Assembly: GCA_016794805.1 (NCBI GenBank) | Contig: JAEUJI010000078.1 | Location: 1-42,005, forward strand | Direction of reading: 5' to 3' | Length of the DNA: 42,005 bases | From: Gemmatimonadota bacterium | Lineage (GTDB): Bacteria; Gemmatimonadota; Gemmatimonadetes; Gemmatimonadales; GWC2-71-9 | Notes under the pieces: model-generated | Told to the model about the DNA's origin: nothing | The model's database searches: none | Seen by the model: the letters and a program-made list of their open reading frames with translations, nothing else | Program-made: the position numbers and the translations under genes | Shown here: positions 12,611 to 39,583 of the stretch, piece after piece | Numbering within the stretch: position 1 is the first letter of the stretch | How the letters are laid out: the number at the start of each line of letters is the position of its first letter

Positions 12611-13630
12611 ATGCCTCGCGTCGTCGGCATTGATCCGGGGACGGTGTCGCTTGATCTCGTGGGCCTCGAGGATGGCAGGGTCTGGCTGGACCGGACCCTC
12701 CCCACCCGCGAGGCCCTCGACGCGCCGGGGCGGCTCCTCGACCTGCTGACCGCCCAGGGGCCGGTGGATCTCATTGCCGGACCCTCCGGGTATGGGCTCC
12801 CCCTGATCCGGGCGGACCGCGCCACCGACGCCGACTTCCGCCTGGCCTTCCTCGCCGCGGAGGGCGAGAGTGGCGGGATCGGCGGGCTGCGACGGCTGGC
12901 GAGGATCCTCACCGACGCGGGCCTGCCGATGGTCTTCACCCCCGGCGTGATCCATCTCCCAACCGTTCCCGCCTGCCGCAAGCTCAACCGGGTAGATCTC
13001 GGTACCGCCGACAAGGTGGCGGCCGCGGCGCTGGGCATCTGGGATCAGGCTCGCCGGACCGGCTCCCCCCGCAAGACATCCTTCATCCTGCTCGAACTCG
13101 GCGGCGCGTTCACCGCGGCGATCGCGGTGGAAGGCGGCGCCATCGTGGACGGCATCGGCGGCACCGGCGGGCCGCCCGGGTGGCAATCCGGCGGCGCCTG
13201 GGACGGTGAGGTCGCGTTCCTCGCCGGCGCCGTCACCAAGGAGATGCTGTTCCGCGGCGGGGCGGAAACCGCCCCGGATGGGATGGCCGCGTACGTCGAG
13301 GGCGCCGAGAAGGCGGTGCGGGCCCTGACGGCCGTGGCGCGCGCCCCCGGGGAGATCCTGCTCTCCGGGAGAATGGCCGCGGTACCGGAGATCCGGGAGA
13401 CACTGGCGGCGCGGCTTTCCGGGATTGCGCCGGTGCGGGACCTCGCGGGATTCGCGGGGACGGCCAAGCAGGGAGCCCAGGGGGCGGCGATCCTGGCGGA
13501 CGGTCTTGCGGGGGGACCCAATGCCGCGATCACGGAGGCGATGCGCATTGGTGAATCGGCAGGGACGGTGCTCGACTACCTTCGGGTGATCACCCCCGCA
13601 GACGCGCGGCGGCGGCTGGGCTTGCGTTGA
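12611..13630 (+). CDS. DUF1464-type ASKHA-fold protein of the H4MPT cluster
   Basis: A 339-residue protein resembling the DUF1464 family, described from archaea and found in H4MPT-using bacteria. The N-terminus MPRVVGIDPGTVSLDLVGLE is the phosphate-1 motif of the actin-like ATPase/sugar-kinase fold, and a second motif appears at LLELGGAFTAAIAVEGG (about 160-175). HLPTVPACRKLNRVDLGTADK around residues 118-138 resembles the conserved core. The reaction is unknown; an ATP-dependent kinase or acyltransferase step in cofactor synthesis is a reasonable guess. It starts 16 bases after mtdB and ends convergently with the mfnF-like gene, sharing a hairpin. Two ASKHA-fold genes lie tail to tail here. 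The ATG at 12611 matches the family N-terminus. Confidence 0.75.
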   Translation: MPRVVGIDPGTVSLDLVGLEDGRVWLDRTLPTREALDAPGRLLDLLTAQGPVDLIAGPSGYGLPLIRADRATDADFRLAFLAAEGESGGIGGLRRLARILTDAGLPMVFTPGVIHLPTVPACRKLNRVDLGTADKVAAAALGIWDQARRTGSPRKTSFILLELGGAFTAAIAVEGGAIVDGIGGTGGPPGWQSGGAWDGEVAFLAGAVTKEMLFRGGAETAPDGMAAYVEGAEKAVRALTAVARAPGEILLSGRMAAVPEIRETLAARLSGIAPVRDLAGFAGTAKQGAQGAAILADGLAGGPNAAITEAMRIGESAGTVLDYLRVITPADARRRLGLR

Positions 13631-21669: not shown

Positions 21670-22629
21670 ATGACCAGCCTCCACATGAACGAGCGTGCCC
21701 GCGACCTCGCCGACCTGATGGTGGAGGATGCGGCCGGGCTGCGCATCCAGGCCACCACGCTCGCCAGCGGGGCACGGCTCATCGACGCCGGGGCGCGGGT
21801 GGACGGCGGGCTCAACGCCGGCCTGCTGCTGGGCGAGATCTGCATGGGCGGCCTGGGCGACGTCGACTACGCCAGCCTGACGCTCGGGGGGGACAACTGG
21901 CCCGGGGTGCAGGTGCGCACCGACCAGCCGGCGCCGGCCTGCATGGGCTCGCAGTACGCCGGCTGGGCCATCCAGGTGGGCAGCTACTTCGCGATGGGCT
22001 CCGGGCCGCTGCGGGCCCACGCGCGGGCGGAGAAGGAGCTGTTCGAGCGACTGGGCTACGCCGAGGATGCCACCTGCGGGGTGCTGGTGCTCGAGGGGCG
22101 GGACCTGCCCACGGACGCCGTCGCCGAGTACGTGGCGAAGAAGGCGAATCTCTCCCCGGCCCAGCTCACCCTCCTGGTCGCGCCGACCGCCAGCCTGGCC
22201 GGCGGCACCCAGATCGCGGCGCGGATCCTCGAGACCGGGCTCCACAAGATGGGAACACTCGGGTTCGACGTGCGCAAGGTCGTGAGCGGCATCGGCACCG
22301 CCCCCATCCCCACGGTGGCGCGGAACGACCTGCGGGGCATCGGCCGGACCAACGATTGCATCCTCTATGGCGGGCAGGCGCACTACACCGTCCGGGCGGA
22401 CGACACCGAGCTGGCCCAGCTGGCGGCCCGGCTCCCGGCCAGCGCCTCCAAGGACTACGGCACGCCGTTCTACGACATCTTCGAGCGCTACAACCGCGAT
22501 TTCTACAAGATCGACCCGCTGCTGTTCAGCCCGGCGGAAGTGTGGCTGACGAGCGTGACGTCAGGAAAGACCCACCACGCGGGCGGGGTGAACGTCGACG
22601 TGCTGAAGCAGTCGTTGTTCTCTGAGTGA
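21670..22629 (+). CDS. mch: Methenyl-H4MPT cyclohydrolase
   Basis: A 319-residue enzyme that converts methenyl-H4MPT to formyl-H4MPT. Family hallmarks: the N-terminal LNERARDLADLMV-like stretch (here MNERARDLADLMV), GGLNAGLLLGEICMGGLGDV (about 42-61), QVRTDQPAPACMGSQYAGW (about 82-100), GSGPLRA, and the C-terminal FYDIFERYNRDFYKIDPLLFSPA. The size is that of known Mch. I chose ATG 21670; ATG 21685 would lose only MTSLH. The 121-base gap from fhcC contains a G+C hairpin (GGCCGGC near 21625) but no clear promoter, so co-transcription with fhc is likely. A very large hairpin follows the stop. Confidence 0.96.
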   Translation: MTSLHMNERARDLADLMVEDAAGLRIQATTLASGARLIDAGARVDGGLNAGLLLGEICMGGLGDVDYASLTLGGDNWPGVQVRTDQPAPACMGSQYAGWAIQVGSYFAMGSGPLRAHARAEKELFERLGYAEDATCGVLVLEGRDLPTDAVAEYVAKKANLSPAQLTLLVAPTASLAGGTQIAARILETGLHKMGTLGFDVRKVVSGIGTAPIPTVARNDLRGIGRTNDCILYGGQAHYTVRADDTELAQLAARLPASASKDYGTPFYDIFERYNRDFYKIDPLLFSPAEVWLTSVTSGKTHHAGGVNVDVLKQSLFSE

Positions 22630-22700: not shown

Positions 22701-22733
22701 CGGATCAGCTGACCCCATTCTTCCGGAGTGATC

Positions 22734-23516
22734 ATGCGTCCCGTTCGCCTGCTGTCCGCCGTTGCGCTGCTCGCCCTCGCTGCCTGCTCCAGGCCGGCTG
22801 ACAAGCCGGCCGCGGATACCACCGCGGCCCAGCCGGCACCGCCCCCGCCCCCGATGGCCTTCGTGACGGTCATCTACAACATCCCGAAGAGCGCCCAGGC
22901 GTTCGAGAAGTACTACTGGCAGACCCACGTCCCGCTGGTGGGCCAGAAGCAGGCGGAGATCGGGTTTGTGGCGGCCGAGCTCACCAAGTTCGACGCCACG
23001 CTCGACGGCAAGGCGCCGACCTACTACCGGCAGGCGGTGCTCTGGTTCAACAGCATGGCGGACCTCGAGAAGGGGATCGCGACGCCCGGCTTCAAGGCGG
23101 TGGGCGACGACCTCGCCAACTTCGCCACCGGCGGCCTCTCGGCGCTGGTCGGGGAGCAGACCAACGACGCCTCGGCCCTGCTGAGCGGCGACACCACGGC
23201 CTTCGTGACCGTCATCTACAATCACCCGAAGGACGCCGCGGCCTTTGAGAGCTACTACGCCGCGACCCACCTCCCGATCGTGGGCGCGGGCGCGGCGGAG
23301 ATCGCGTTCACCCGGGCGGAGCTGACGAAGTTCTCGAAGAATCTCGACGGCACCCCGGCAGCGTTCTACCGCCAGGCCAAGCTCTACTTCCCGAACGCCG
23401 CGGCCCTCAAGACCGGGACCGGCACCGCCGCCTTCAAGGCGGTGGGCGATGACCTCGGCAAGTTCGCCGACGGCGGGCTGACGGCGCTGGTCGGGCACCT
23501 GACCAGCAAGCCGTAG
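22734..23516 (+). CDS. Lipoprotein with two tandem EthD-like domains
   Basis: A 260-residue protein with a lipoprotein signal (LLALAAC lipobox, Cys at about residue 18) followed by a Pro/Ala linker. Two clearly duplicated domains follow: about 40-145 (AFVTVIYNIPKSAQAFEKYY, HVPLVG, TYYRQAVLWFN, GFKAVGDDL) and about 157-258 (AFVTVIYNHPKDAAAFESYY, HLPIVG, AFYRQAKLYFP, AFKAVGDDL). Each resembles the EthD-type dimeric alpha+beta barrel, which normally dimerises, so the tandem may form an intramolecular barrel. A role is unknown; no link to C1 chemistry is established. ATG 22734 has GGAG five bases upstream. The gene is isolated by large hairpins on both sides, suggesting a separate transcription unit inside the C1 island. 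Confidence 0.8.
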   Translation: MRPVRLLSAVALLALAACSRPADKPAADTTAAQPAPPPPPMAFVTVIYNIPKSAQAFEKYYWQTHVPLVGQKQAEIGFVAAELTKFDATLDGKAPTYYRQAVLWFNSMADLEKGIATPGFKAVGDDLANFATGGLSALVGEQTNDASALLSGDTTAFVTVIYNHPKDAAAFESYYAATHLPIVGAGAAEIAFTRAELTKFSKNLDGTPAAFYRQAKLYFPNAAALKTGTGTAAFKAVGDDLGKFADGGLTALVGHLTSKP

Positions 23517-23561: not shown

Positions 23562-24425
23562 ATGGACATCGTCATCCTCGCCGGCGGCAGTGGCTGGCAC
23601 ACCGATGAGCTCGTGCGCGCGGTCAGCGCGCGCGGGCTCGTCCCGCATCTGCTCCCGTGGGAAGCCAGCGTCTCCCGCATGGGGGCCGCCAGCGGGGTGA
23701 CCAACTCCGGCCGCGCCCTCCGGGAGGCGCGCGGGGTCCTCGCCCGCATCATTCCCGGCGGCACCCTGGAGCAGATCATCTTCCGGGTGGACACCCTGCA
23801 CCGGCTGGAGGAAGAGGGGGTCAGGGTCATGAACACCGCGCGCGCCATCGAGCGCACGGTGGACAAGGCATGGACCAGCGCCATCCTGGAGCGGGCCGGC
23901 CTGCCCACCCCGGAAACCGTGGCCTGCGAGCGGGCGGAGGACGCCTTTGCCGCCTTCGCGGCCCTGGGCGATGTGGTGGTGAAGCCCCTGTTCGGCTCGA
24001 TGGGGCTCGGCATGAGCCGGGTGAGCGACGAGGACATGGCCTGGCGGGTCTTCCGGGTGATCGAGACGGTGCGGGGCGTGTACTACCTGCAGCGCTTCAT
24101 TCCGCATGGCGGCCGTGACATCCGCGCCTTCGTGGTCGGCGACCGGGTGCTGGGGGCGATCGAGCGCACCGCCGATGGGTGGCGCACCAACTTCTCCCGC
24201 GGCGGCAAGGCGGCGCCGATCTCCCTGCCGGCCGCCTGGGCCGACCTGGCGCTCCGGGCGGCCCGGGCCGTGGGGGCCGAGTACGCCGGGGTGGACCTGC
24301 TGCCGGCGGAGGACGGGACGGTCTACGTGCTCGAAGTGAACGGCATCCCCGGCTGGGAAGGGCTGCAGTCGGCCACCGGAGTGGACGTGGCCGGGGCCAT
24401 CGTGGACCAGCTCCTCCGGACCTAG
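23562..24425 (+). CDS. RimK-like ATP-grasp glutamate ligase of the H4MPT cluster
   Basis: A 287-residue RimK-family ATP-grasp ligase. N-terminal MDIVILAGGSGWHTDELVRA is the pre-ATP-grasp domain, DKAWTSAILERAGLPTPET starts the ATP-grasp domain (about 105), GDVVVKPLFGSMGLGM gives the ATP lysine and glycine loop (about 141-156), RDIRAFVVGDRVLGAI is the hallmark strand, and GVDLLPAEDGTVYVLEVNGIPGW closes the metal site. In methanogens relatives (MptN, CofF) add glutamate to H4MPT or F420. Bacterial dephospho-H4MPT lacks that tail as far as known, so glutamylation of methanofuran is an alternative role. It leads an operon with the CitG-like and PTPS genes (5 bases to the next ATG). Confidence 0.82.
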   Translation: MDIVILAGGSGWHTDELVRAVSARGLVPHLLPWEASVSRMGAASGVTNSGRALREARGVLARIIPGGTLEQIIFRVDTLHRLEEEGVRVMNTARAIERTVDKAWTSAILERAGLPTPETVACERAEDAFAAFAALGDVVVKPLFGSMGLGMSRVSDEDMAWRVFRVIETVRGVYYLQRFIPHGGRDIRAFVVGDRVLGAIERTADGWRTNFSRGGKAAPISLPAAWADLALRAARAVGAEYAGVDLLPAEDGTVYVLEVNGIPGWEGLQSATGVDVAGAIVDQLLRT

Positions 24426-24430
24426 CGCCC

Positions 24431-25306
24431 ATGCCCGACGCGCCGGCCGATCTCGCCGCGCTCGCCACGCTGGCCTGCGTGCTGGAAGCGAGCGCTCCCA
24501 AGCCCGGCAACGTGGCGCCGGGACGGCCGTTCCGCGACATGCGCTACGAGGACTTCGTCGCGAGCGCGGTGGCGGTGGGGCCGCCACTGGGCCAGGCCGG
24601 GCAGCGGCCGCTGGGCGAGGTGATCCATGCCGCGATCGCCGCCACGCGCGAGTGGACCGCGGCCAACACCAACCTGGGCATCGTGCTGCTGCTGGCGCCG
24701 CTGGCCAAGGCCGCCGCGCTCCCCCGTCCGCTTCGCGCCGGCGTCAGGGTGGTGCTCGCACAGACGACCATTGGGGACGCGGTGGAGGTGTACGCCGCCA
24801 TCGGGCTGGCGCAGCCCGGGGGGCTGGGCCGCGCGCCGGCCCAGGATCTCGCGCAGCGCCCCAGCGTCACCCTGCTCGAGGCCATGCGCCTGGCGGCGGA
24901 ACGGGATGGGGTGGCCAGGGAGTACGCCACCGCCTACGAGACGACCTTCACCGTAGGCGTCCCGGCGCTGCGGCGGGCGCGCGGCGCCGGCCTGGACTGG
25001 GAGGAAGCGGTGGTGGAGACGTTCCTCGCCATCCTGGCCCACCAGCCGGATACCCTGATCGGCCGCAAACTCGGCGCCGCGGTCGCGACGGAGGTCTCCG
25101 CCCAGGCGCGGGAGGTGCTCGCGGCCGGCGGCACCCGGGACGCGGCGGGACGCGCCGCCCTCGCCGCGTTTGACGCGGGCCTCCGCGACGCCCACAATTC
25201 ACGCAACCCCGGCACGACTGCCGATCTCACCGCCGCCGCGCTCTTCGCGGCGCTGGTGGAGGACGGATGGCGGACCGACCCATCGAGGAACGACCGTGCG
25301 CAGTGA
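24431..25306 (+). CDS. CitG-like triphosphoribosyl transferase family protein
   Basis: A 291-residue all-helical protein of the CitG/MdcB family, whose known members transfer a triphosphoribosyl group from ATP to dephospho-CoA. Visible signatures: CVLEASAPKPGNVAPGRPFRDM (about 17-38), ANTNLGIVLLLAPLAKAA (about 77-94), DAGLRDAHNSRNPGTTADLTAAALF (about 253-277), the last being the conserved NPGT.ADL box. It lies between RimK-like and PTPS genes in an H4MPT operon, without citrate or malonate lyase genes nearby, so the acceptor is very probably an H4MPT intermediate rather than dephospho-CoA. It overlaps the PTPS gene by 11 bases. Function in H4MPT synthesis is inferred from context. Confidence 0.82.
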   Translation: MPDAPADLAALATLACVLEASAPKPGNVAPGRPFRDMRYEDFVASAVAVGPPLGQAGQRPLGEVIHAAIAATREWTAANTNLGIVLLLAPLAKAAALPRPLRAGVRVVLAQTTIGDAVEVYAAIGLAQPGGLGRAPAQDLAQRPSVTLLEAMRLAAERDGVAREYATAYETTFTVGVPALRRARGAGLDWEEAVVETFLAILAHQPDTLIGRKLGAAVATEVSAQAREVLAAGGTRDAAGRAALAAFDAGLRDAHNSRNPGTTADLTAAALFAALVEDGWRTDPSRNDRAQ

Positions 25307-25790
25307 CTTCAAGGTGACCGTCAGCAAGGACTACCTGGTCTTCAGCTCCGCCCACTTCATCACCTTCCGCGGGCACCAGTGCGAGACCCTGCACGGCCAC
25401 AACTACCGGGTGGGGGTGACCGTCGAGGGAAGCGTGGATGACGAGACGATGTTCGTCGTGGACTTCTCGATCCTCAAGAAGATCATCCGCAAGCTCACCG
25501 ACGAGATCGACCACAAGGTGCTGCTGCCGATGAAGAACCCGAAGCTGGGCTTCCGGGTGGAGGGAGACCGGCGCCTGGTGGATTACTTCGGGCAGCACAC
25601 CTACACCTTCCCGCTGGTGGACTGCGCCATGATGCCCATCGAGAACACCACCGCGGAGATGATCGCGCAGCACTTTGCCCACCGCACCCGGGAGGAGCTG
25701 GGCACGATGGGGATCCGGAACCTGACGGCGATCGAGATGGAAGTGGAGGAGAGCTTCGGCCAGTCGGCGACCTACCGGCTGGCGCTGTGA
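25296..25790 (+). CDS. 6-pyruvoyltetrahydropterin synthase-family protein with CExxHGH motif
   Basis: A 164-residue PTPS/QueD-family (COG0720) enzyme. The zinc site is His20 (SSAHF) plus His33 and His35 (HGHNY). The catalytic region reads C29-E30-T-L-H-G-H, with both the usual Cys nucleophile and an adjacent Glu. As I recall, PTPS-III enzymes use the Glu to form 6-hydroxymethyl-dihydropterin directly from dihydroneopterin triphosphate, and proteins with both residues can do both reactions. Here it would supply the pterin half of H4MPT without a dihydroneopterin aldolase. An insert around residues 75-105 (MKNPKLGFRVEGDRRLVDYFGQH) makes it longer than QueD. Start is GTG 25296 with GAGGAA five bases upstream, inside the end of the CitG-like gene. 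Confidence 0.88.
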   Translation: MRSDFKVTVSKDYLVFSSAHFITFRGHQCETLHGHNYRVGVTVEGSVDDETMFVVDFSILKKIIRKLTDEIDHKVLLPMKNPKLGFRVEGDRRLVDYFGQHTYTFPLVDCAMMPIENTTAEMIAQHFAHRTREELGTMGIRNLTAIEMEVEESFGQSATYRLAL

Positions 25791-27982: not shown

Positions 27983-28771
27983 ATGACTGCCGACAACGCT
28001 TCGCCCGCCACAGGCATCTCCCTCGCCGGGAAACGGGTGCTGGTCACCGGCGGATCCAGCGGCATCGGCCGGGCGATCGCGCTGGCCGCCGCCCGCGCCG
28101 GCGCCGATGTCGCCATCTGCTACCGGGCCAACGAGGCGGGGGCCACCGCGGTGGCGGAGCAGGTCCGCGGGACCGGGCGGCGGGTCGCGATTCTCCGGGC
28201 GGATGTCGGGCGGCAGGAAGAGCTGGATCGGCTCGCCGCGACGGTGCGGGACGCCTTCGGGGGCGTGGACGCCTGGATCAACAACGCCGGAGCGGACGTC
28301 CTCACCGGCGGCGGGGCGGCGCTCTCCCGGCTGGAGAAGCTGGACCTCCTGCTGCGGGTGGATCTCCGCGGGACCATGCTGGCCTGCTGGACGGCGGCGG
28401 AGCTGATGGCCGGACAGCCCGGAGGCGGCGTGATCATCAACATGTCGTGGGACCGGGTGCTGCAGGGATTGCCCGGGGAGAACCCGGAACTGTTCTCCGC
28501 CGTGAAGGGCGGGATCCTCGGCTTCAGCCGCTCGCTGGCCAGGAGCCTCGCGCCGGCGATCCGGGTGAATGTGCTCGGCCCGGGGTGGATCGACACCGCC
28601 TTCGGCCAGGGCGCGCCGGACCAGTTCCGGGCCCGGGTGGCGGAACAGATTCCGCTCGGCCGCTGGGGGACGCCGGAGGATGTGGCGGGTGCGGCGATCT
28701 ACCTGGCCTCGGACCAGGCGCGGTACGTGACCGGACAGATCATCATGGTGAACGGTGGGGATGTGATGTAG
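27983..28771 (+). CDS. Short-chain dehydrogenase-like protein with altered active site
   Basis: A 262-residue SDR-fold protein. The cofactor loop TGGSSGIGR (22-30) and NNAG (100-103) are intact, so NAD(P)H binding is expected. The catalytic Tyr of YxxxK is replaced by Phe171 (F-S-A-V-K175), and the usual catalytic Ser position in the N-I-S-S strand aligns with Trp156 (INMSWDRV). The SWD....G..GE..ELF motif looks conserved in a subgroup I have seen in planctomycetes, another H4MPT-containing phylum, so it is probably a specialised, functional enzyme and not decay. A dihydromethanopterin or other pterin reductase role is a guess. First gene of SDR-PCD-DHPS-like operon. ATG 27968 is an alternative start. 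Confidence 0.78.
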   Translation: MTADNASPATGISLAGKRVLVTGGSSGIGRAIALAAARAGADVAICYRANEAGATAVAEQVRGTGRRVAILRADVGRQEELDRLAATVRDAFGGVDAWINNAGADVLTGGGAALSRLEKLDLLLRVDLRGTMLACWTAAELMAGQPGGGVIINMSWDRVLQGLPGENPELFSAVKGGILGFSRSLARSLAPAIRVNVLGPGWIDTAFGQGAPDQFRARVAEQIPLGRWGTPEDVAGAAIYLASDQARYVTGQIIMVNGGDVM

Positions 28772-28803: not shown

Positions 28804-29163
28804 ATGTCGAAGAAGGAACGCACCTATACCGATGCCGAGATCGCGGAGAGACTCACCGCCTTGCCCGGCTGGTACTACGAAGAGGGCTTCATCCGGCGGC
28901 AATTCAAGACCGACGGCTGGCTCACCACGCTCACCCTGGTCAACACCATCGGCTACCTGGCCGAGGCGGCGTATCACCACCCGGACCTGACGGTGACCTG
29001 GGCCAAGGTGTGGGTGAAGCTGCAGACCCACTCCGCCGGCGGGATCACGGACAAGGACTGGGAACTGGCCCGGAAGATCGAGGACACCGTGCTGTGGAAG
29101 CCGGCCGGTGGCGCGCTCGAGGGCACTCCGAACAAGTGGGTGCGAGGCGGGGACCCGAAGTGA
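28804..29163 (+). CDS. Pterin-4a-carbinolamine dehydratase-like protein
   Basis: A 119-residue protein of the PCD/DCoH (PhhB) family. The catalytic signature AAYHHPDL (His58, His59, Pro60) and the downstream THSAGGITDKDW (His76, Asp) are present. Known members dehydrate 4a-hydroxytetrahydrobiopterin; here no aromatic amino acid hydroxylase is nearby, and the neighbours are H4MPT genes, so a pterin role in H4MPT synthesis or maintenance is more likely. It has a C-terminal extension of about 20 residues (LWKPAGGALEGTPNKWVR) beyond the usual fold. AAGGAG lies seven bases before the ATG. Its TGA overlaps the GTG of the next gene. Confidence 0.88.
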   Translation: MSKKERTYTDAEIAERLTALPGWYYEEGFIRRQFKTDGWLTTLTLVNTIGYLAEAAYHHPDLTVTWAKVWVKLQTHSAGGITDKDWELARKIEDTVLWKPAGGALEGTPNKWVRGGDPK

Positions 29164-30617
29164 CGGAGGAGGCGGCTCGGCGGCTCGGCGGCTCGGCGGC
29201 ACGTCCGAGCCGGCCTGCCGCCGAGGCGCCGAGGCGCGTGCTGTTCGTCACCGGCAAGCTCGCGGAGCCCGCCCTCCGCCGGGTGCTCGAGGCCATGCGG
29301 CCCCCGTTCGCCGCCGACGTCGCGGTCCAGAAGATCACGGTGGCGGCGCTGATGACGACGGAGTGGATCGCGCGGTTCCTCACGGTTCCGGAGGGGACCG
29401 ACCTGGTCCTGCTGCCCGGCCTGGTCGAGGGGGACACCGCGGTGCTGGCGGAACGGTTCGGTGTCGCGGTGGAAAAGGGCCCCAAGGACCTGCGTGAGAT
29501 CCCGCAGCATTTCGGCCAGGCGGCGCTGGCACGGGAGTACGGCGCCTTCGACATCGAGATCCTGGCCGAGGTGAACAACGCCCCCAAGCGGACGCTGGGG
29601 GAGATCCTCGCGGAGGCGCGGCACTACCAGGCCTCCGGCGCCGACCTCATCGACGTCGGCTGCACCCCGGGAGTGCCGTTCCCCGACCTGGCCGCCGTGG
29701 TGCGTGAGCTGCGCGGCGCGGGGATGCGGGTGAGCGTGGATTCGTTCGACCGGGGCGAGATCCGCACCGCGGTCGCCGCCGGCGCCGAACTGGTCCTGAG
29801 CGTCAACGGCTCCAACCTGGCGGCGCTCGAGGACCTGCGCGGCACCGGCGCCCGGGTCGTCGCCATCCCCGACTTCGGGGCCGGCCTCGAGACCCTGGAG
29901 CCCACGCTCGCGGCGCTGGAGCGGGCCCGGATTCCCTACCTGATCGATCCCATCATCGAACCGATCGGCTTCGGCTTCATGGCCTCGCTGGAGCGCTACG
30001 CCGAAGTCCACCGCCGCTATCCGGGCGTGCCGCAGCTCATGGGGGTGGGCAATATCACCGAGCTCACCAGCGCCGATACGACAGGGGTGCATGCCCTGCT
30101 GCTGGCCATCTGCCAGGAGGTCGGGGTGAAGGCGGTGCTCACCACCGAGGTGATCCCGTGGGCCAGGGGCGCGGTGCGGGAGATCGACATCGCCCGCCGG
30201 CTGATGCACTACGCCGTCAGCCAGAAGACCCCGCCCAAGCATGTGGATGACCGCCTGCTCACCGTGAAGGACCCCCGGCCCCTGGCCTACTCCGAGGCGG
30301 AGCTGCGGGAGCTGCAGGCGGGCGTGAGGGACCCGAACTTCCGGATCTTCACCGACCACGACACCATCACGGTCTTCAACCACGCACTGTTCGTGCGCGG
30401 CACCGACATCCAGCGGATCTTCGACCAGCTCGGCATCACCGACCCGTCGCACGCCTTCTACGTGGGGAAGGAACTGGCCAAGGCGCGGCTCGCGATTCAG
30501 CTGGGCAAGACCTACCGCCAGGAGGGGCAGCTCGCCTGGGGCTACCTGACCCCGCCGGAGGACCCCAACCGCGAGCATTTCCGGCCCGCGGCGCGGGCCC
30601 GTGCCAGCGAGCCCTGA
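29160..30617 (+). CDS. Dihydropteroate synthase-related protein of the H4MPT pathway
   Basis: A 485-residue protein of the DHPS-related family found in methanogens and H4MPT bacteria. An N-terminal domain (from about residue 27: VLFVTGKLAEPALRRVLEAM) precedes the DHPS-like TIM barrel (about 135-385: FDIEILAEVNNAPKRTLGEI, ADLIDVGCTPGVPFPDL, VSVDSFDRGEI, GVGNITELTSADTTG), followed by a C-terminal domain of about 100 residues (FRIFTDHDTITVFNHALFVRG). It may couple the pterin to beta-ribofuranosylaminobenzene phosphate or act nearby; the archaeal assignment is not settled in my knowledge. The GTG at 29160 overlaps the PCD stop (GTGA), but an 8-base tandem repeat follows, and GTG 29238, right at the conserved start, may be the true one. 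Confidence 0.85.
   Translation: MTEEAARRLGGSAARPSRPAAEAPRRVLFVTGKLAEPALRRVLEAMRPPFAADVAVQKITVAALMTTEWIARFLTVPEGTDLVLLPGLVEGDTAVLAERFGVAVEKGPKDLREIPQHFGQAALAREYGAFDIEILAEVNNAPKRTLGEILAEARHYQASGADLIDVGCTPGVPFPDLAAVVRELRGAGMRVSVDSFDRGEIRTAVAAGAELVLSVNGSNLAALEDLRGTGARVVAIPDFGAGLETLEPTLAALERARIPYLIDPIIEPIGFGFMASLERYAEVHRRYPGVPQLMGVGNITELTSADTTGVHALLLAICQEVGVKAVLTTEVIPWARGAVREIDIARRLMHYAVSQKTPPKHVDDRLLTVKDPRPLAYSEAELRELQAGVRDPNFRIFTDHDTITVFNHALFVRGTDIQRIFDQLGITDPSHAFYVGKELAKARLAIQLGKTYRQEGQLAWGYLTPPEDPNREHFRPAARARASEP
29172..29203 (+). repeat. 8-base tandem repeat at the 5' end of the DHPS-related gene
   Basis: GCGGCTCG is repeated three times (29172-29195), then once with one change (GCGGCACG, 29196-29203). 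The copy at 29192-29200 also pairs perfectly over 9 bp with 29217-29225. The unit is not a multiple of three, which is unusual in coding sequence. Confidence 0.8.
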
Positions 30618-31961: not shown

Positions 31962-33401
31962 ATGCCCGCGCTGCCGCTGGTCGAAGAGCTCCTCCCCACC
32001 CCAGATCCGATGGCCACGGCCGAGCGGTTCCTGGGGCAGCCGCAGCTGCTGTTCCTGGACAGCGCCGCCGATCCGGAGCGGCTGGGGCGATACTCGTTCC
32101 TCGCCGCGGCGCCCGTCGGCCTCATCCGGACCCGTGGCCCCGGTACCCCATCGGCCCTGGCACAGGCGCGGGCGCTGCTCGATCCGTACCGCGCCGATCC
32201 GATCCCCGGCCTCCCGCCGTTTCAGGGCGGGCTCGCCGGATTCCTGGCCTACGACTACGGCGCGGTGCTGGAGCGGATCCCCGCGCCGCGCTACGACGAC
32301 CTGGCCCTCCCCGACGCCATGTTCGGCCTGTATGACTGGGTCATCGCCTGGGATCACCAGGCGGGACGGGCCTGGATCGTCTCCACCGGCCTGCCGGCGA
32401 CGGGCGCGGCCCGCGCCACACGCGCCGCCGAGCGACTGGCCTGGGTGCGGCGAATGCTGACGGGCCCGGTGAGTGGCGCGACCGGGCGCCAGTGGTCATC
32501 GCCGGCGCGGCCGGGGCCGGCCGCGCCGTCCTATCCGGTGTCGGGGACGGAGTTCGCCCGCGGGATCGGACTCCGGTCCTCCTTCACCCACCGGGGCTAC
32601 CTCGACGCGGTGCAGCGGGTGGTGGACTACATCGTGGCGGGGGACATCTTCCAGGCCAACCTCAGCCAGCGGCTGGAGAGCCCGCTGGAGGAGGACCCGT
32701 GGCGCCTGTACCGCCGGCTGCGGGAGCTCAACCCGGCGCCATTCGCCGCCTACCTGGAGTTCGACGGGATCGGGGTGGCCAGCGCGTCGCCGGAGCGGTT
32801 CCTCCGCGTGGAGCCGACGGGGTGGGTGGAGACCCGCCCGATCAAGGGCACCCGGCCCCGCGGCGTGGGCCCGGAACATGACGCGGCGCTCTCCAGGGAC
32901 CTCCGGGAGAGCGCGAAGGACCGGACCGAGAACCTGATGATCGTGGACCTGCTGCGGAATGACCTGTCGCGGGTCTGCCTGCCGGGCAGCGTCCGGGTCC
33001 CCGAGCTGTTCGCGCTGGAGAAGCACCGCACGGTGCATCACCTGGTCTCAACGGTGGTGGGCCGGCTGGCGCCGGGGAACGACGCCACCGACCTCCTCGC
33101 CGCCGCGTTCCCCGGGGGGAGCATCACCGGCGCGCCCAAGGTGCGGGCCATGGAGATCATCGCCGAGCTGGAGCCCTCCCGCCGGGGGATCTACTGCGGC
33201 GCGATCGGGTACCTGAGTCTGACGGGCGCCATGGACACCAGCATCGTGATCCGCACCTTCGTGGCCGGCGGCGGGCGGGTGACCTTCTCGGTGGGCGGCG
33301 GCATCGTGGCGGACTCGGAGCCGGAGAACGAATACCAGGAGACCCTGCACAAGGCGCGGGCGCTGATCCACGCCCTGGCCGGGGCGGTGACGACGCCATG
33401 A
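31962..33401 (+). CDS. pabB: Aminodeoxychorismate synthase component I
   Basis: A 479-residue chorismate-binding enzyme. The N-terminal domain begins LPLVEELLPTPDPMATAERF; the catalytic domain has GDIFQANLSQRL (about 230), SPERFLRVEPTGWVETRPIKGTRPR (about 278-300), ENLMIVDLLRNDLSRVC and FPGGSITGAPKVRAMEIIAELEP (about 385-405), and ends with FSVGGGIVADSEPENEY. PIKGT is the motif typical of PabB; TrpE and PabB are hard to separate, but pairing with pabA inside an H4MPT island argues for para-aminobenzoate, the precursor of the arylamine in H4MPT made by MptG. The stop overlaps the pabA ATG (ATGA). Confidence 0.9.
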   Translation: MPALPLVEELLPTPDPMATAERFLGQPQLLFLDSAADPERLGRYSFLAAAPVGLIRTRGPGTPSALAQARALLDPYRADPIPGLPPFQGGLAGFLAYDYGAVLERIPAPRYDDLALPDAMFGLYDWVIAWDHQAGRAWIVSTGLPATGAARATRAAERLAWVRRMLTGPVSGATGRQWSSPARPGPAAPSYPVSGTEFARGIGLRSSFTHRGYLDAVQRVVDYIVAGDIFQANLSQRLESPLEEDPWRLYRRLRELNPAPFAAYLEFDGIGVASASPERFLRVEPTGWVETRPIKGTRPRGVGPEHDAALSRDLRESAKDRTENLMIVDLLRNDLSRVCLPGSVRVPELFALEKHRTVHHLVSTVVGRLAPGNDATDLLAAAFPGGSITGAPKVRAMEIIAELEPSRRGIYCGAIGYLSLTGAMDTSIVIRTFVAGGGRVTFSVGGGIVADSEPENEYQETLHKARALIHALAGAVTTP

Positions 33402-34066
33402 TCCTGCTGCTCGACAACTACGACAGCTTCGTCTACAACCTGGCCCGCTACGTCGCGGAACTCGGCGAGGCGCCGGTGGTGCGCCGGAACGACGCCCTCA
33501 CCGTGGCGGAGGTCGCCGCCCTCGGGCCCAGCCACATCATCATCTCCCCCGGCCCCTGTACCCCGGCGGAGGCCGGCATCTCGATCGAGACCATCCGCCG
33601 GCTCGGGACCTCCATTCCCATCCTGGGCGTCTGCCTTGGCCACCAGGCCATTGGCGCGGCGTATGGCGCGGAGATCGTCCGGGCCGGCCGCCCGATGCAC
33701 GGGAAGACCTCGCAGATCCGGCACCGGGGCACCTCGGTCTTCACGGGCCTGCCCAGTCCGCTGATCGCCACCCGGTACCACTCGCTGGTGATCGCGCCGG
33801 AGTCGGTGCCCCCGGAGCTCGAGGTCACCGCCACCGCCGAGGATGGGGAGATCATGGCGGTGGCACACCGGGAGCACCCCGTGGCGGGGGTCCAGTTCCA
33901 CCCCGAGTCGGTGCTCACCGAGCATGGGTACCGCATGCTCGACTGGTTCCTCACCGGCGGCAGAGGCAGCAACGTGCCCGACCGGGCGGATGGCGCCGCC
34001 CTGCCCCCCGACCCCGGTGAGCCGGACCTCGCCACCGCGCCCCCGCCCGCCGACCAGGTGCGTTAG
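33398..34066 (+). CDS. pabA: Aminodeoxychorismate synthase component II (glutamine amidotransferase)
   Basis: A 222-residue class I glutamine amidotransferase that supplies ammonia to PabB. The start MILLLDNYDSFVYNLARYVA is the classic N-terminus, the nucleophile is Cys79 in GVCLGHQAIG, and the histidine-glutamate pair lies in GVQFHPESV (about 164-172). MHGKTSQIRHRGTSVFTGLP and RYHSLV are also typical. About 30 residues past the usual end are Pro/Ala/Asp-rich (ADGAALPPDPGEPDL) and probably disordered. TrpG and PabA cannot be told apart by motif alone, but ATGA coupling to pabB and island context favour folate/H4MPT para-aminobenzoate. Confidence 0.92.
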   Translation: MILLLDNYDSFVYNLARYVAELGEAPVVRRNDALTVAEVAALGPSHIIISPGPCTPAEAGISIETIRRLGTSIPILGVCLGHQAIGAAYGAEIVRAGRPMHGKTSQIRHRGTSVFTGLPSPLIATRYHSLVIAPESVPPELEVTATAEDGEIMAVAHREHPVAGVQFHPESVLTEHGYRMLDWFLTGGRGSNVPDRADGAALPPDPGEPDLATAPPPADQVR

Positions 34067-36017: not shown

Positions 36018-37963
36018 TCTGCCATTGCCTGCTCCTCGCCGCGTTCCTCGCCCCGGGCCTCGCCGCGCAGCAGCCGGCCGCGATCGTGCCGGAGGAGAAC
36101 CTGGTCCTGGACGGGATCCCCGCCCTCCCTGCCTCGCTCCGCGACGAGGTCCGGCGCTACACGGAGTTCCGCTCCGCCGGCCTGGCCGGATGGCACCCGC
36201 ACCGGCGGGAGGTGCTGATCACGACCCGGTTCGGGAACACCAACCAGCTGCACCGGGTGGCCCAGCCGGGCGGTGCCCGGAGCCAGCTCACCTTTTTCGA
36301 TGAGCCGGTGGCTGGTGGCAGCTACGCCCCGGCAGACGGCAGCTTCCTTGTCTTCTCACGGGACCAGGGCGGCAACGAGTTCACCCAGCTCTTCCGGATG
36401 GACCTGCCGGGTGGCCAGGTGACGCTCCTGACCGACGGAAAGTCGCAGAACGGCGGGACTCGGTGGTCGCACGCCGGCGACCGGATCGCCTACGGCTCCA
36501 CCCGCCGCAATGGCGCCGACCGCGACCTCTACGTCATGGACCCGCGCCGTCCCGAGAGCGACCGGCGGGTGCTCGAGGTCTCCGGGGGCGGGTGGTCGGT
36601 CCAGGACTGGTCGGCCGACGACCGCGCGCTGGTGGTGCTGGAGTCGTTTTCGGTGAACCGCTCGCGCCTCTGGCGGGTGGAGGTCGCGACCGGCGCCCGG
36701 ACCCTCCTCACCGAGGACGCCCCCGGCGATACCGTCTCGCGGGGGAACGCCCGGTGGAGCCCGGACGGCGGGAGCATCTATCACCTCACCGACCAGGGGA
36801 GTGAGTTCCGGCGGCTGGCGCGGCTCGACCTCGCGCGCAGCCGGCTCGAGGTGCTCACGCCGTCGCTCGCGTGGGATGTGCAGCAGTTCGAGCTGTCGCC
36901 GGATGGCCGGCAGATCGCGCTGGTGACCAACGAGGCAGGCCAGTCGCGGCTCTACCTGCTGGCGCTGCCCGGCGGGCGGCTCCGCCCGGTGCCCAACCTG
37001 CCGGTGGGGCTGATCGGCGGCCTCGAGTGGCGGCCGCAGGGCGGAGAGCTCGGCTTCACCCTCAGCACCGCACGCTCCGCCGCGGACGTCTACAGCCTCG
37101 AGGTGGCCCGCGGACGCCTGATCCGCTGGACCGAGAGCGAGACCGGCGGCCTCGACGTGAGCGCGCTTCCCGAACCGGAGCTGGTCCGGTGGAAGAGCTT
37201 CGACGGCCTCGAGATCTCGGGCTTTCTGTACCGGCCGCCGGCGCGGTTCACCGGCCCGCGCCCCGTCCTGATCAGCATCCACGGCGGCCCCGAGGGACAG
37301 TCCACGCCGGGGTTCCTGGGCCGCACCAACTATTTCCTGCTCGAGCTCGGGGCGGCGGTGCTGCTGCCCAACGTGCGCGGCTCCACCGGGTACGGGAAGA
37401 CGTTCGTGAAGCTGGACAACGGCATGCGGCGGGAAGACGCCGTGCGGGACATCGGCGCCCTGCTCGACTGGATCGGCACCGCGCCGGGCCTCGACCCGGA
37501 CCGGGTGATGGTGACCGGCGGGAGCTACGGCGGCTACATGACGCTGGCGGTGGCGACGCTCTACAACGACCGGATCTGCTGCGCGCTCGACGTGGTGGGG
37601 ATCTCCAATTTCGTGAGCTTCCTGACCAACACCGAGAGCTACCGCCGCGACCTGCGCCGGGCGGAGTACGGCGACGAGCGGGACCCCGCGATGCGCGCCT
37701 ACCTCGAGGGCATCGCCCCGCTGCACCGCGCCGGCCGCATCACCAAGCCGCTCTTTGTGGTGCAGGGCGGCAATGACCCGCGGGTCCCGCGCAGCGAGGC
37801 GGAGCAGATGGTGGCGGCGGCCAAGCGGAACGGCAGCCCCGTCTGGTACCTGCTCGCCACCGATGAAGGACACGGCTTCCGGAAGAAGGCCAACGTGGAC
37901 TTCCAGTTCTACGCCACCGTGGCGTTCATGCACCGGTTCCTGCTGGGCACCGCGACGCCATGA
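36014..37963 (+). CDS. Secreted S9-family prolyl oligopeptidase-like peptidase
   Basis: A 649-residue serine peptidase with signal peptide (MICHCLLLAAFLAPGLAAQ). Residues about 50-390 are a seven-bladed beta-propeller with repeated W/FSPDG-like turns (GNARWSPDGGSIYHLTD, FELSPDGRQIALVTN). The alpha/beta hydrolase domain follows: VLISIHGGPEGQSTPGF (oxyanion region), TGGSYGGYMTLA (nucleophile Ser near 503), VQGGNDPRVPRSEAEQM (Asp) and DEGHGFRKKAN (His). It would cleave short peptides outside the cytoplasm. Such S9 enzymes are abundant in Gemmatimonadota. ATG overlaps the CocE stop. No link to C1 metabolism is visible. Confidence 0.93.
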   Translation: MICHCLLLAAFLAPGLAAQQPAAIVPEENLVLDGIPALPASLRDEVRRYTEFRSAGLAGWHPHRREVLITTRFGNTNQLHRVAQPGGARSQLTFFDEPVAGGSYAPADGSFLVFSRDQGGNEFTQLFRMDLPGGQVTLLTDGKSQNGGTRWSHAGDRIAYGSTRRNGADRDLYVMDPRRPESDRRVLEVSGGGWSVQDWSADDRALVVLESFSVNRSRLWRVEVATGARTLLTEDAPGDTVSRGNARWSPDGGSIYHLTDQGSEFRRLARLDLARSRLEVLTPSLAWDVQQFELSPDGRQIALVTNEAGQSRLYLLALPGGRLRPVPNLPVGLIGGLEWRPQGGELGFTLSTARSAADVYSLEVARGRLIRWTESETGGLDVSALPEPELVRWKSFDGLEISGFLYRPPARFTGPRPVLISIHGGPEGQSTPGFLGRTNYFLLELGAAVLLPNVRGSTGYGKTFVKLDNGMRREDAVRDIGALLDWIGTAPGLDPDRVMVTGGSYGGYMTLAVATLYNDRICCALDVVGISNFVSFLTNTESYRRDLRRAEYGDERDPAMRAYLEGIAPLHRAGRITKPLFVVQGGNDPRVPRSEAEQMVAAAKRNGSPVWYLLATDEGHGFRKKANVDFQFYATVAFMHRFLLGTATP

Positions 37964-37982
37964 GGCCGTGGCCGAGCCGCCG

Positions 37983-38561
37983 ATGATCATCGAGACCCTC
38001 CTCACCACCCTCTCGGCCGACGGGACGCTCAACTGCGCCCCCATGGGCGTCGAATGGGGCGACGACCAGACCATCGTCATCAAGCCGTTCGTGGACACCA
38101 CCACCTTCCGCAACCTGGTGGCGACCCGCGCGGGCGTCCTGAATCTCACCGACGACGCCCGGCTGTTCGCGCTCGCGGTCATCCACCATCCCGCCGCCGC
38201 CAACCCCGCCACGGTGCCGGCGGCCGTCGTCCGGGGCGCGGTCCTGGAGGCGGCCTGTTCCTGGCGCGAGGTCGAGGTTGTCACGGTGGATGACACCCCG
38301 CCCCGGTCCCGCATCACCACCCGCGTGGTGCACCGCGGTACCCGGCGGGAGTTCCTCGGCTTCAACCGGGCGCGGCACGCCGTCCTCGAGGCCGCGATCC
38401 TCGCCACCCGGACGCACCTGTTGCCCGTCGCCGAGCTCCACGCGGACTACGCCCGGCTGCAGGTGATCGTGGACAAGACCGCGGGGCCCGCGGAGCGGGA
38501 GGCGATGACGCTGCTCACCGAGTACGTCTCCCGCCGGCTGGCGGAGAGCCGCTCCGCATGA
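37983..38561 (+). CDS. DUF447-family protein of the H4MPT cluster
   Basis: A 192-residue protein of the DUF447 family, which has a flavin-reductase-like split-barrel fold and is common to methanogens and H4MPT methylotrophs. It begins MIIETLLTTLSADGTLNCAPMGVEW and has IKPFVDTTTFRNLVATRAGVLNLTDD (about 31-57), CSWREVEVV, the conserved EFLGFNRARHAVLEAAILATRTHLLP (about 121-146), and a C-terminal helix. Its exact reaction is unknown; it is required for dephospho-H4MPT synthesis in related systems only as far as I recall. ATG 37983 is preferred; GTG 37968 would add MAEPP. Its stop overlaps the mptG ATG by four bases, tying it to H4MPT synthesis. Confidence 0.85.
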   Translation: MIIETLLTTLSADGTLNCAPMGVEWGDDQTIVIKPFVDTTTFRNLVATRAGVLNLTDDARLFALAVIHHPAAANPATVPAAVVRGAVLEAACSWREVEVVTVDDTPPRSRITTRVVHRGTRREFLGFNRARHAVLEAAILATRTHLLPVAELHADYARLQVIVDKTAGPAEREAMTLLTEYVSRRLAESRSA

Positions 38562-39583
38562 CCCGACCCGCCGAACGCCCCATCCGGGTCACGGTCGAGG
38601 CGCCGGCCCGGCTCCATTTCGGCATCCTCGACCTGCGAGGCCATCGGGGGCGGAAGTTCGGCGGCATCGGCGCCGCCGTCCCGACGCCGAGCCTTCGGCT
38701 GGTCGCCACCCGGGAAGCGGGGGTGACGGCGGAGGGCCCGGACGCCGGGCGGGCGCTCGAGTTCGCCCAGCGGTACCTCGCGGCAACGGGCCTCACCGGA
38801 GGCGCGCACCTCTGCGTGCAGCGCGCCATCCCGGCCCACGCCGGACTCGGCTCCGGCACCCAGATGGCGCTCGCGGTGGCGCGGGCACTGGCCGAGCTCT
38901 ACGGCCAGTCCCCCGAGCCGCAGGCGCTGGCCCGGGCGGTGGGGCGCGGGCTCCGCTCCGCCATCGGCACCTGGACCTTCGCGCTGGGCGGCTTCGTGCT
39001 GGAGGGGGGCCGGAAGAGCGGTGGGGACGTCGCGCCGCTCATCTCCCGGCTGCCGATCCCCGCCAGCTGGCGCTGCGTGATCGCCATCCCCGAGGGCCGA
39101 CCGGGCCTCTCCGGCAGCGCGGAGGCGGCGGCGTTCCGGGAGCTGCCGCCGCCGGAGGAGCGGGAGGTGGAGCGGGTGGCGCACCTGGTGCTGATGCAGC
39201 TCCTCCCCGCCCTGGCCGACGCCGACCTGACCGCCTTTGGCGCCGCGCTCACCGAGGTGCAGCGGATTACCGGCGGCTGGTTCGCCGCGGCGCAGGGGGG
39301 GGCGTTCGCCTCGGGGGCCACCGAGGCCCTCGTGGAACGGATGACGGCGTTCGGCGCCGCGGGCGTGGGACAGAGCTCCTGGGGGCCGACCGTGTATGGC
39401 CTGGTGCCGCAGGAGGAGGCGGCCCAGGACCTGGGCCAGCGGGTGCGGGCCTGGCTGGGCGGTCGGGGAGTGGTGCTGGAGACCGGCTTTTCGGAGCGGG
39501 GCGCCCTGGTGAGCAGCGAATGGACCGCGGTGGGCACCCCCGGGGACGGGGGTTCCGATCTGATTGACAGGTTATTCAGGTGA
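38558..39583 (+). CDS. mptG: Beta-ribofuranosylaminobenzene 5'-phosphate synthase
   Basis: A 341-residue GHMP-fold enzyme that joins para-aminobenzoate to PRPP with loss of CO2, the first committed step of H4MPT synthesis. Visible: VEAPARLHFGILDLRG (13-28), GGIGAAV, the glycine loop HAGLGSGTQMALAVA (94-108), LRSAIGTWTFALGGFVLEGGRKS (about 131-153), and GVGQSSWGPTVYGLV (about 268-282). These match beta-RFAP synthase. It is coupled to the DUF447 gene (ATGA). PabA and PabB encoded upstream would provide its substrate. The stop codon at 39581-39583 lies between the boxes of the xoxF promoter that follows. Confidence 0.95.
   Translation: MTRPAERPIRVTVEAPARLHFGILDLRGHRGRKFGGIGAAVPTPSLRLVATREAGVTAEGPDAGRALEFAQRYLAATGLTGGAHLCVQRAIPAHAGLGSGTQMALAVARALAELYGQSPEPQALARAVGRGLRSAIGTWTFALGGFVLEGGRKSGGDVAPLISRLPIPASWRCVIAIPEGRPGLSGSAEAAAFRELPPPEEREVERVAHLVLMQLLPALADADLTAFGAALTEVQRITGGWFAAAQGGAFASGATEALVERMTAFGAAGVGQSSWGPTVYGLVPQEEAAQDLGQRVRAWLGGRGVVLETGFSERGALVSSEWTAVGTPGDGGSDLIDRLFR

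Follow-up and report, generated by a model that had tools for sequence, protein, structure and literature searches.

The described proteins closest to the one considered here are CitG (E. coli b0613) and its counterpart MdcB, the triphosphoribosyl-dephospho-CoA synthases that serve citrate lyase and malonate decarboxylase, respectively. CitG uses ATP, a β-riboside, to make an α-riboside. Conversion of a β-nucleotide donor to an α-riboside is also known for CobT (nicotinate mononucleotide:dimethylbenzimidazole phosphoribosyltransferase), an unrelated protein that offers a chemical analogy only. Tetrahydromethanopterin (H4MPT) is the one-carbon carrier of methanogens, anaerobic methane oxidizers, and many methylotrophs, and its synthesis includes steps without enzymes. 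The first ribosyl transfer of the pathway is carried out by MptG (β-RFAP synthase), which makes a β-riboside from PRPP, an α donor. The second ribose of H4MPT is α and, to our knowledge, is the only sugar of the molecule to which no enzyme has been assigned.

The structure 3h9p, from the H4MPT-using archaeon Archaeoglobus fulgidus, is titled “putative triphosphoribosyl-dephospho-CoA synthase,” which apparently gives no function beyond the family name. Methylotrophs carry an archaeal-like gene island with the order mch-orf5-orf7-fae, all genes of which are needed for growth on methanol (PMC8141765). PMC3615186 calls Orf7 no more than an “H4MPT-linked C1 transfer pathway protein,” and the papers that we consulted do not give the pterin content of an orf7 mutant. 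Another gene bears the name orf7 in PMC7391723; it lies in the pqq region and was rejected as the CitG-like gene. Among the openly available papers that our literature search covered, none assigns the CitG-like branch described below to methanopterin synthesis.

The CitG-like gene and its neighbors

The window that we analyzed is a 42,005-nucleotide stretch of a Gemmatimonadota genome (contig JAEUJI010000078.1). Its CitG-like gene is surrounded by fae, mtdB, fhcBADC, mch, pterin and p-aminobenzoate genes, mptG, methylofuran genes, and a gene for a PQQ alcohol dehydrogenase; some of these neighbors were named from reading translations alone. The features discussed here are as follows.

12611..13630, + strand: DUF1464 protein (PF07318, 8.9e-81; Asgard synteny)
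21673..22629, + strand: mch, methenyl-H4MPT cyclohydrolase (TIGR03120, 2.6e-122)
23562..24425, + strand: RimK-family glutamate ligase, counterpart of Orf5/MyfB (methylofuran polyglutamate ligase) by position and family (RimK PF08443, 2.3e-29)
24431..25306, + strand: CitG-family protein of the H4MPT-associated branch, candidate ATP-dependent α-ribosyltransferase of (dephospho-)H4MPT synthesis (Pfam, tree, residues, model)
about 25296..25790, + strand: PTPS-family pterin gene, its start overlapping the end of the CitG-like gene (PF01242, 2.1e-25; sequence at 25286-25345)
27983..28771, + strand: SDR reductase, possible dihydropterin reductase (adh_short_C2, 1.9e-56; TmpR model, 5.9e-39, under its cut-off)
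29103..30617, + strand: dihydropteroate-synthase-like (DHPS-like) protein (TIGR00284, 3.9e-58)
31962..34066, + strand: pabB and pabA, for p-aminobenzoate supply (read by eye from the ORF translations)
37950..38561 (start approximate), + strand: DUF447 flavin-type protein adjoining mptG (PF04289, 1e-21)
38558..39583, + strand: mptG, β-RFAP synthase, first ribosyl transfer (TIGR00144, 4.3e-48; NF040726, 2.3e-56)

The CitG-like ORF extends from an ATG at 24431 to a TGA at 25304-25306 and encodes 291 amino acids. In a Pfam search, its product matched PF01874 (CitG) with an E value of 2.1e-76 (257.7 bits versus a cut-off of 27); the alignment spans residues 9-273 and profile positions 1-283 of 284, as expected of a full-length member. 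The AlphaFold2 model of the protein has a mean pLDDT of 94.8, and the sole PDB entry that matched it at E <0.001 was 3h9p (Foldseek E value of 2.4e-07; TM score of 0.83 on the target; 27-28% identity; profile E value of 6.9e-30). The ORF is a real, conserved gene, not a chance one. It lies, as originally predicted, between RimK-like and PTPS genes. Only 5 bp separate the RimK stop (24425) from its start, and the most likely start of the PTPS gene, a GTG at 25296, falls inside its 3′ end; such tight spacing suggests that the three are transcribed together as an operon.

Several of the neighbors deserve comment. The RimK protein scored 247.6 bits on the MptN model, under the cut-off of 350. Between mch and rimK, positions 22728-23516 encode a putative secreted repeated-domain protein, which is kept at this place in many Gemmatimonadota loci and by sequence is unrelated to the H4MPT pathway. 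By what is established for its family, the DHPS-like protein joins pterin and RFAP. The TmpR model matched by the SDR protein describes a dihydropteridine/dihydrofolate reductase; because inspection of the window ORF list revealed no DmrA-like or AfpA-like gene, we consider the SDR protein a candidate dihydromethanopterin reductase.

Separation from CitG and MdcB

The window protein fell far short of the cut-offs of the models built for the enzymes whose name its relatives bear: it scored 49.6 bits versus 272.3 for the CitG equivalog (TIGR03125), 58.4 bits versus 282.35 for the MdcB equivalog (TIGR03132), and 66.6 bits versus 280 for NF002315. In a tree of 77 CitG-family proteins, from which one row in the wrong reading frame (L131) was disregarded, a branch with an SH-aLRT value of 100 parts CitG and MdcB from the bacterial H4MPT-cluster sequences, including the window protein, and from most Asgard sequences; two Asgard sequences group with CitG/MdcB. 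The genes for the true CitG and MdcB proteins of the tree adjoin citX/citF or mdcG/mdcC in annotated records, and MdcB genes in particular have mdcG and the rest of the mdc operon beside them, whereas the window contains no citX/mdcG partner gene. Nor are citrate or malonate lyase genes found near the CitG-like gene, in agreement with the original prediction. A search that was positive in the E. coli control detected no member of the CitD/MdcC acyl-carrier-protein family (PF06857) anywhere in the source genome. In a profile search, the window gene was the only CitG match of that genome (3.9 Mb, 97% complete).

Residues common to both branches are E19, K24-P25-G26, V28, N79, G83, D207, A226, P260-G261, and A264-D265 (window numbering); shared by CitG, MdcB, and the window protein, they plausibly form the ATP-binding and catalytic core. 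Other positions are fixed differently in the H4MPT-associated branch than in CitG/MdcB: N27 for L41, G62 for R92, N81 for H112, L82 for K113, Y165 for A183, N259 for S275, and T262 for G278. In addition, D116, D139, and D159 are invariant only in the H4MPT-associated branch, and the CitG-specific residues L41, G48, H50, M53, G95, E99, M102, R180, A183, S275, and G278 are all replaced in the window protein. None of the CitG/MdcB-invariant residues that are replaced in the window branch is known to bind CoA. Judged by tree and residues, the H4MPT-linked proteins form a branch of their own within the CitG family, and the name triphosphoribosyl-dephospho-CoA synthase should not be applied to them.

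Distribution and gene order in bacteria and archaea

A check suggested with the original prediction was whether the CitG-like subfamily co-occurs with mptG, and in two bacterial phyla it does so wherever mch is present. Of 200 Gemmatimonadota genomes, 19 have both CitG and mch, and each of these also carries mptG; the remaining 181 lack CitG and mch alike (Fisher test for CitG and mch, 5.6e-27, a value that ignores relatedness and is inflated by it). Two complete genomes of this phylum, G033 (also locus L025) and G158, have an MptG match above the cut-off and neither mch nor CitG; we therefore did not accept MptG by itself as a pathway marker, and members of its family may have a second role. 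Of 149 genomes of Planctomycetota, the phylum of Aquisphaera, the same 14 contain a CitG above the cut-off, mch, and an mptG match of full length; 4 of these 14 mptG matches lie under the family cut-off. The three genes are far apart in several of the Planctomycetota carriers, so physical linkage alone does not explain the match. A substantial mptG match was likewise present in 33 of 36 CitG carriers from further groups. The genomic link of the CitG-like branch to the H4MPT pathway is thus well supported.

A single-sequence scan of genome contigs found no relatives of the gene, and an alignment-based scan found 80 loci. Among these, the arrangement mch-rimK-citG is a recurrent one, found in Gemmatimonadota, Acidobacteria, Chloroflexi, Caldisericota, Myxococcota/Desulfobacterota, Actinomycetota, NC10, Synergistaceae, some Planctomycetota, and, adding Firmicutes to the phyla, Desulfosporosinus and Halanaerobium. 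The rimK(myfB) gene directly adjoins citG in 42 of the 72 loci that have enough upstream sequence. Proteobacteria carry, on plasmids, the arrangement mptG-mtdB-ATP-grasp-mch-rimK-citG, usually followed by fae, and their CitG-like proteins are annotated as being of the triphosphoribosyl-dephospho-CoA synthase type. Going by gene order, Orf7 of the methylotroph island, encoded between orf5 and fae and hence in the same place after mch-rimK, should be a CitG-like protein. Orf5, the RimK protein encoded next to mch in that island, is MyfB, the methylofuran polyglutamate ligase (PMC8141765), so adjacency to rimK is not evidence for H4MPT. On this point the original prediction, which counted the RimK-like neighbor in its genomic context, has to be narrowed: the RimK neighbor, as a MyfB relative, drops out, and the argument is carried by the co-occurrence with mch, the separate clade, and an H4MPT-only cluster in Asgard archaea.

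Across 148 Asgard genomes, we found CitG in 119, mch in 98, and mptG, at full or partial length, in 60; mch was present in 88 of the 119 CitG-bearing genomes, and the raw presence of CitG correlated only weakly with that of mptG. The picture depends on the CitG score. With a split at 165 bits, chosen after seeing the data, mch or mptG accompanies CitG in 88 of 91 genomes with scores of at least 165 bits and in 2 of 18 with divergent proteins of 130-165 bits. Three of the lower-scoring proteins that we read have KPGG or KPGA in place of KPGN, and their genes have no H4MPT neighbors. The divergent KPGG/KPGA family members at loci L155, L156, and L157, from genomes without Mch or MptG, have the same neighbors in each case. 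Co-occurrence with mptG fails in 31 Asgard genomes that have Mch and a CitG of 165-200 bits and in which no MptG was detected; their MptG may have been missed, or they may use another acceptor.

Two kinds of Asgard locus place citG among one-carbon genes. One contig (L159) has the order fhcB-fhcA-fhcC-mch-rimK-citG. Four other genomes (L160-L163) have the cluster mptG-DUF1464-flavoprotein/ferredoxin-DHPS-like-GTP cyclohydrolase, and citG is at most 10-15 kb away. In the 20 kb around these clusters no methanofuran genes were found; holding citG and H4MPT genes without a methanofuran gene, the clusters set citG apart from methanofuran synthesis. Among 14 control genomes, CitG and mptG are both present in M. 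jannaschii, M. acetivorans, H. volcanii, and S. acidocaldarius, and E. coli has CitG without mptG. Sulfolobus acidocaldarius, which is not known to have a methanofuran pathway, has matches to CitG and MptG and none to Mch. CitG, MptG, and Mch were all matched in Haloferax volcanii, whose one-carbon carrier, according to reviewers, is folate. Haloferax, like the Asgard genomes with CitG and Mch and no detected MptG, is unexplained by the simple form of our proposal.

A proposed second ribosyl transfer and its alternatives

We infer that proteins of the CitG-like branch probably transfer an α-ribosyl unit from ATP to the ribitol of a dihydropterin precursor, that is, that they carry out the second ribosyl transfer of H4MPT synthesis. 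Because the second ribose is α, a simple inversion needs a β donor such as ATP; the chemical argument of the original prediction fits in this respect. In the reaction that we envisage, the 5′-hydroxyl of ribitol in a dihydropterin-aminophenyl-ribitol precursor would attack C1′ of ATP, and adenine would leave with inversion to give an α-(1→5)-linked 5-triphosphoribosyl unit. Bacteria would then cleave off the triphosphate, yielding dephospho-H4MPT; in archaea, the 5-phosphate becomes part of the phosphodiester to hydroxyglutarate, a bond whose cost the triphosphate could cover. Bacterial dH4MPT differs from H4MPT solely by its missing phosphate and hydroxyglutarate (PMC8141765), and it should therefore also contain the second ribose.

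One-to-one presence in two phyla, chemistry that fits, and an archaeal relative of solved structure (3h9p) make the branch a strong candidate for the enzyme that adds the second sugar of H4MPT and render one step of the pathway testable; the assignment would also correct a misleading database name on many genes. Counting against ATP, earlier cell-extract work on methanopterin synthesis reportedly drew PRPP as the donor of the second ribose. A broader scheme is possible, if doubtful: an ancient CitG-type enzyme, common to bacteria and archaea, would use ATP to supply methanopterin with its second ribosyl unit by way of a 5″-triphosphate intermediate, the triphosphate driving formation of the hydroxyglutarate phosphodiester in archaea, a step with a chemical parallel in CitX, and being removed in bacteria. 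The CitG of citrate lyase would then be a side branch of an older one-carbon cofactor enzyme.

It is highly improbable that the window gene encodes an ordinary triphosphoribosyl-dephospho-CoA synthase for citrate lyase or malonate decarboxylase, as automatic annotation has it. The Pfam family and the core residues are those of CitG and MdcB, and the proteobacterial relatives are so annotated, but the equivalog scores, the fully supported position outside the CitG/MdcB clade, and the absence of both an acyl carrier protein in the genome and a citX/mdcG neighbor speak against it, as does a distribution that tracks mch instead. We also think it very unlikely that the family performs no ribosyl chemistry and accompanies H4MPT genes for reasons of regulation or repair: although the divergent Asgard group lacking Mch and MptG shows that CitG-fold proteins can have other roles, the H4MPT-linked proteins keep the core residues, probably those for ATP binding and catalysis, and in two phyla their presence coincides one to one with that of the pathway.

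Within one-carbon cofactor synthesis, the enzyme could act on another acceptor or at another step of the H4MPT pathway, for example by adding ribose before the pterin is joined or by transferring a phosphoribosyl group through other chemistry. All of the linkage evidence would fit any pathway step, and the Asgard genomes with CitG and Mch and no detected MptG suggest that the acceptor need not come from MptG; still, such a role is unlikely, given that the second ribose is the one H4MPT sugar for which we know of no assigned enzyme and that CitG chemistry suits its α configuration. Service to methylofuran rather than H4MPT synthesis is less probable again, even though the gene sits directly behind myfB in the window and, as noted, at many other loci. 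Bacteria with H4MPT generally also have methylofuran, so co-occurrence cannot separate the two. What does separate them is the pairing of citG with mptG, DHPS-like, and GTP cyclohydrolase genes in the four Asgard clusters, and with MptG in S. acidocaldarius. Moreover, methylofuran is composed of furan, tyrosine/tyramine, and glutamates, with no sugar, and most steps of its synthesis have already been given to other genes of the island (PMC8141765).

The archaeal clusters also draw attention to other genes. A DUF1464 homologue lies directly behind mptG in the four Asgard genomes (L160-L163) and may therefore serve another step of H4MPT synthesis. In the same clusters, two adjacent genes are conserved behind the GTP cyclohydrolase gene (L160:9985-12046 and the equivalent places in L161-L163); the first has a weak nucleotidyltransferase domain match, and both are possible further genes of the H4MPT pathway.
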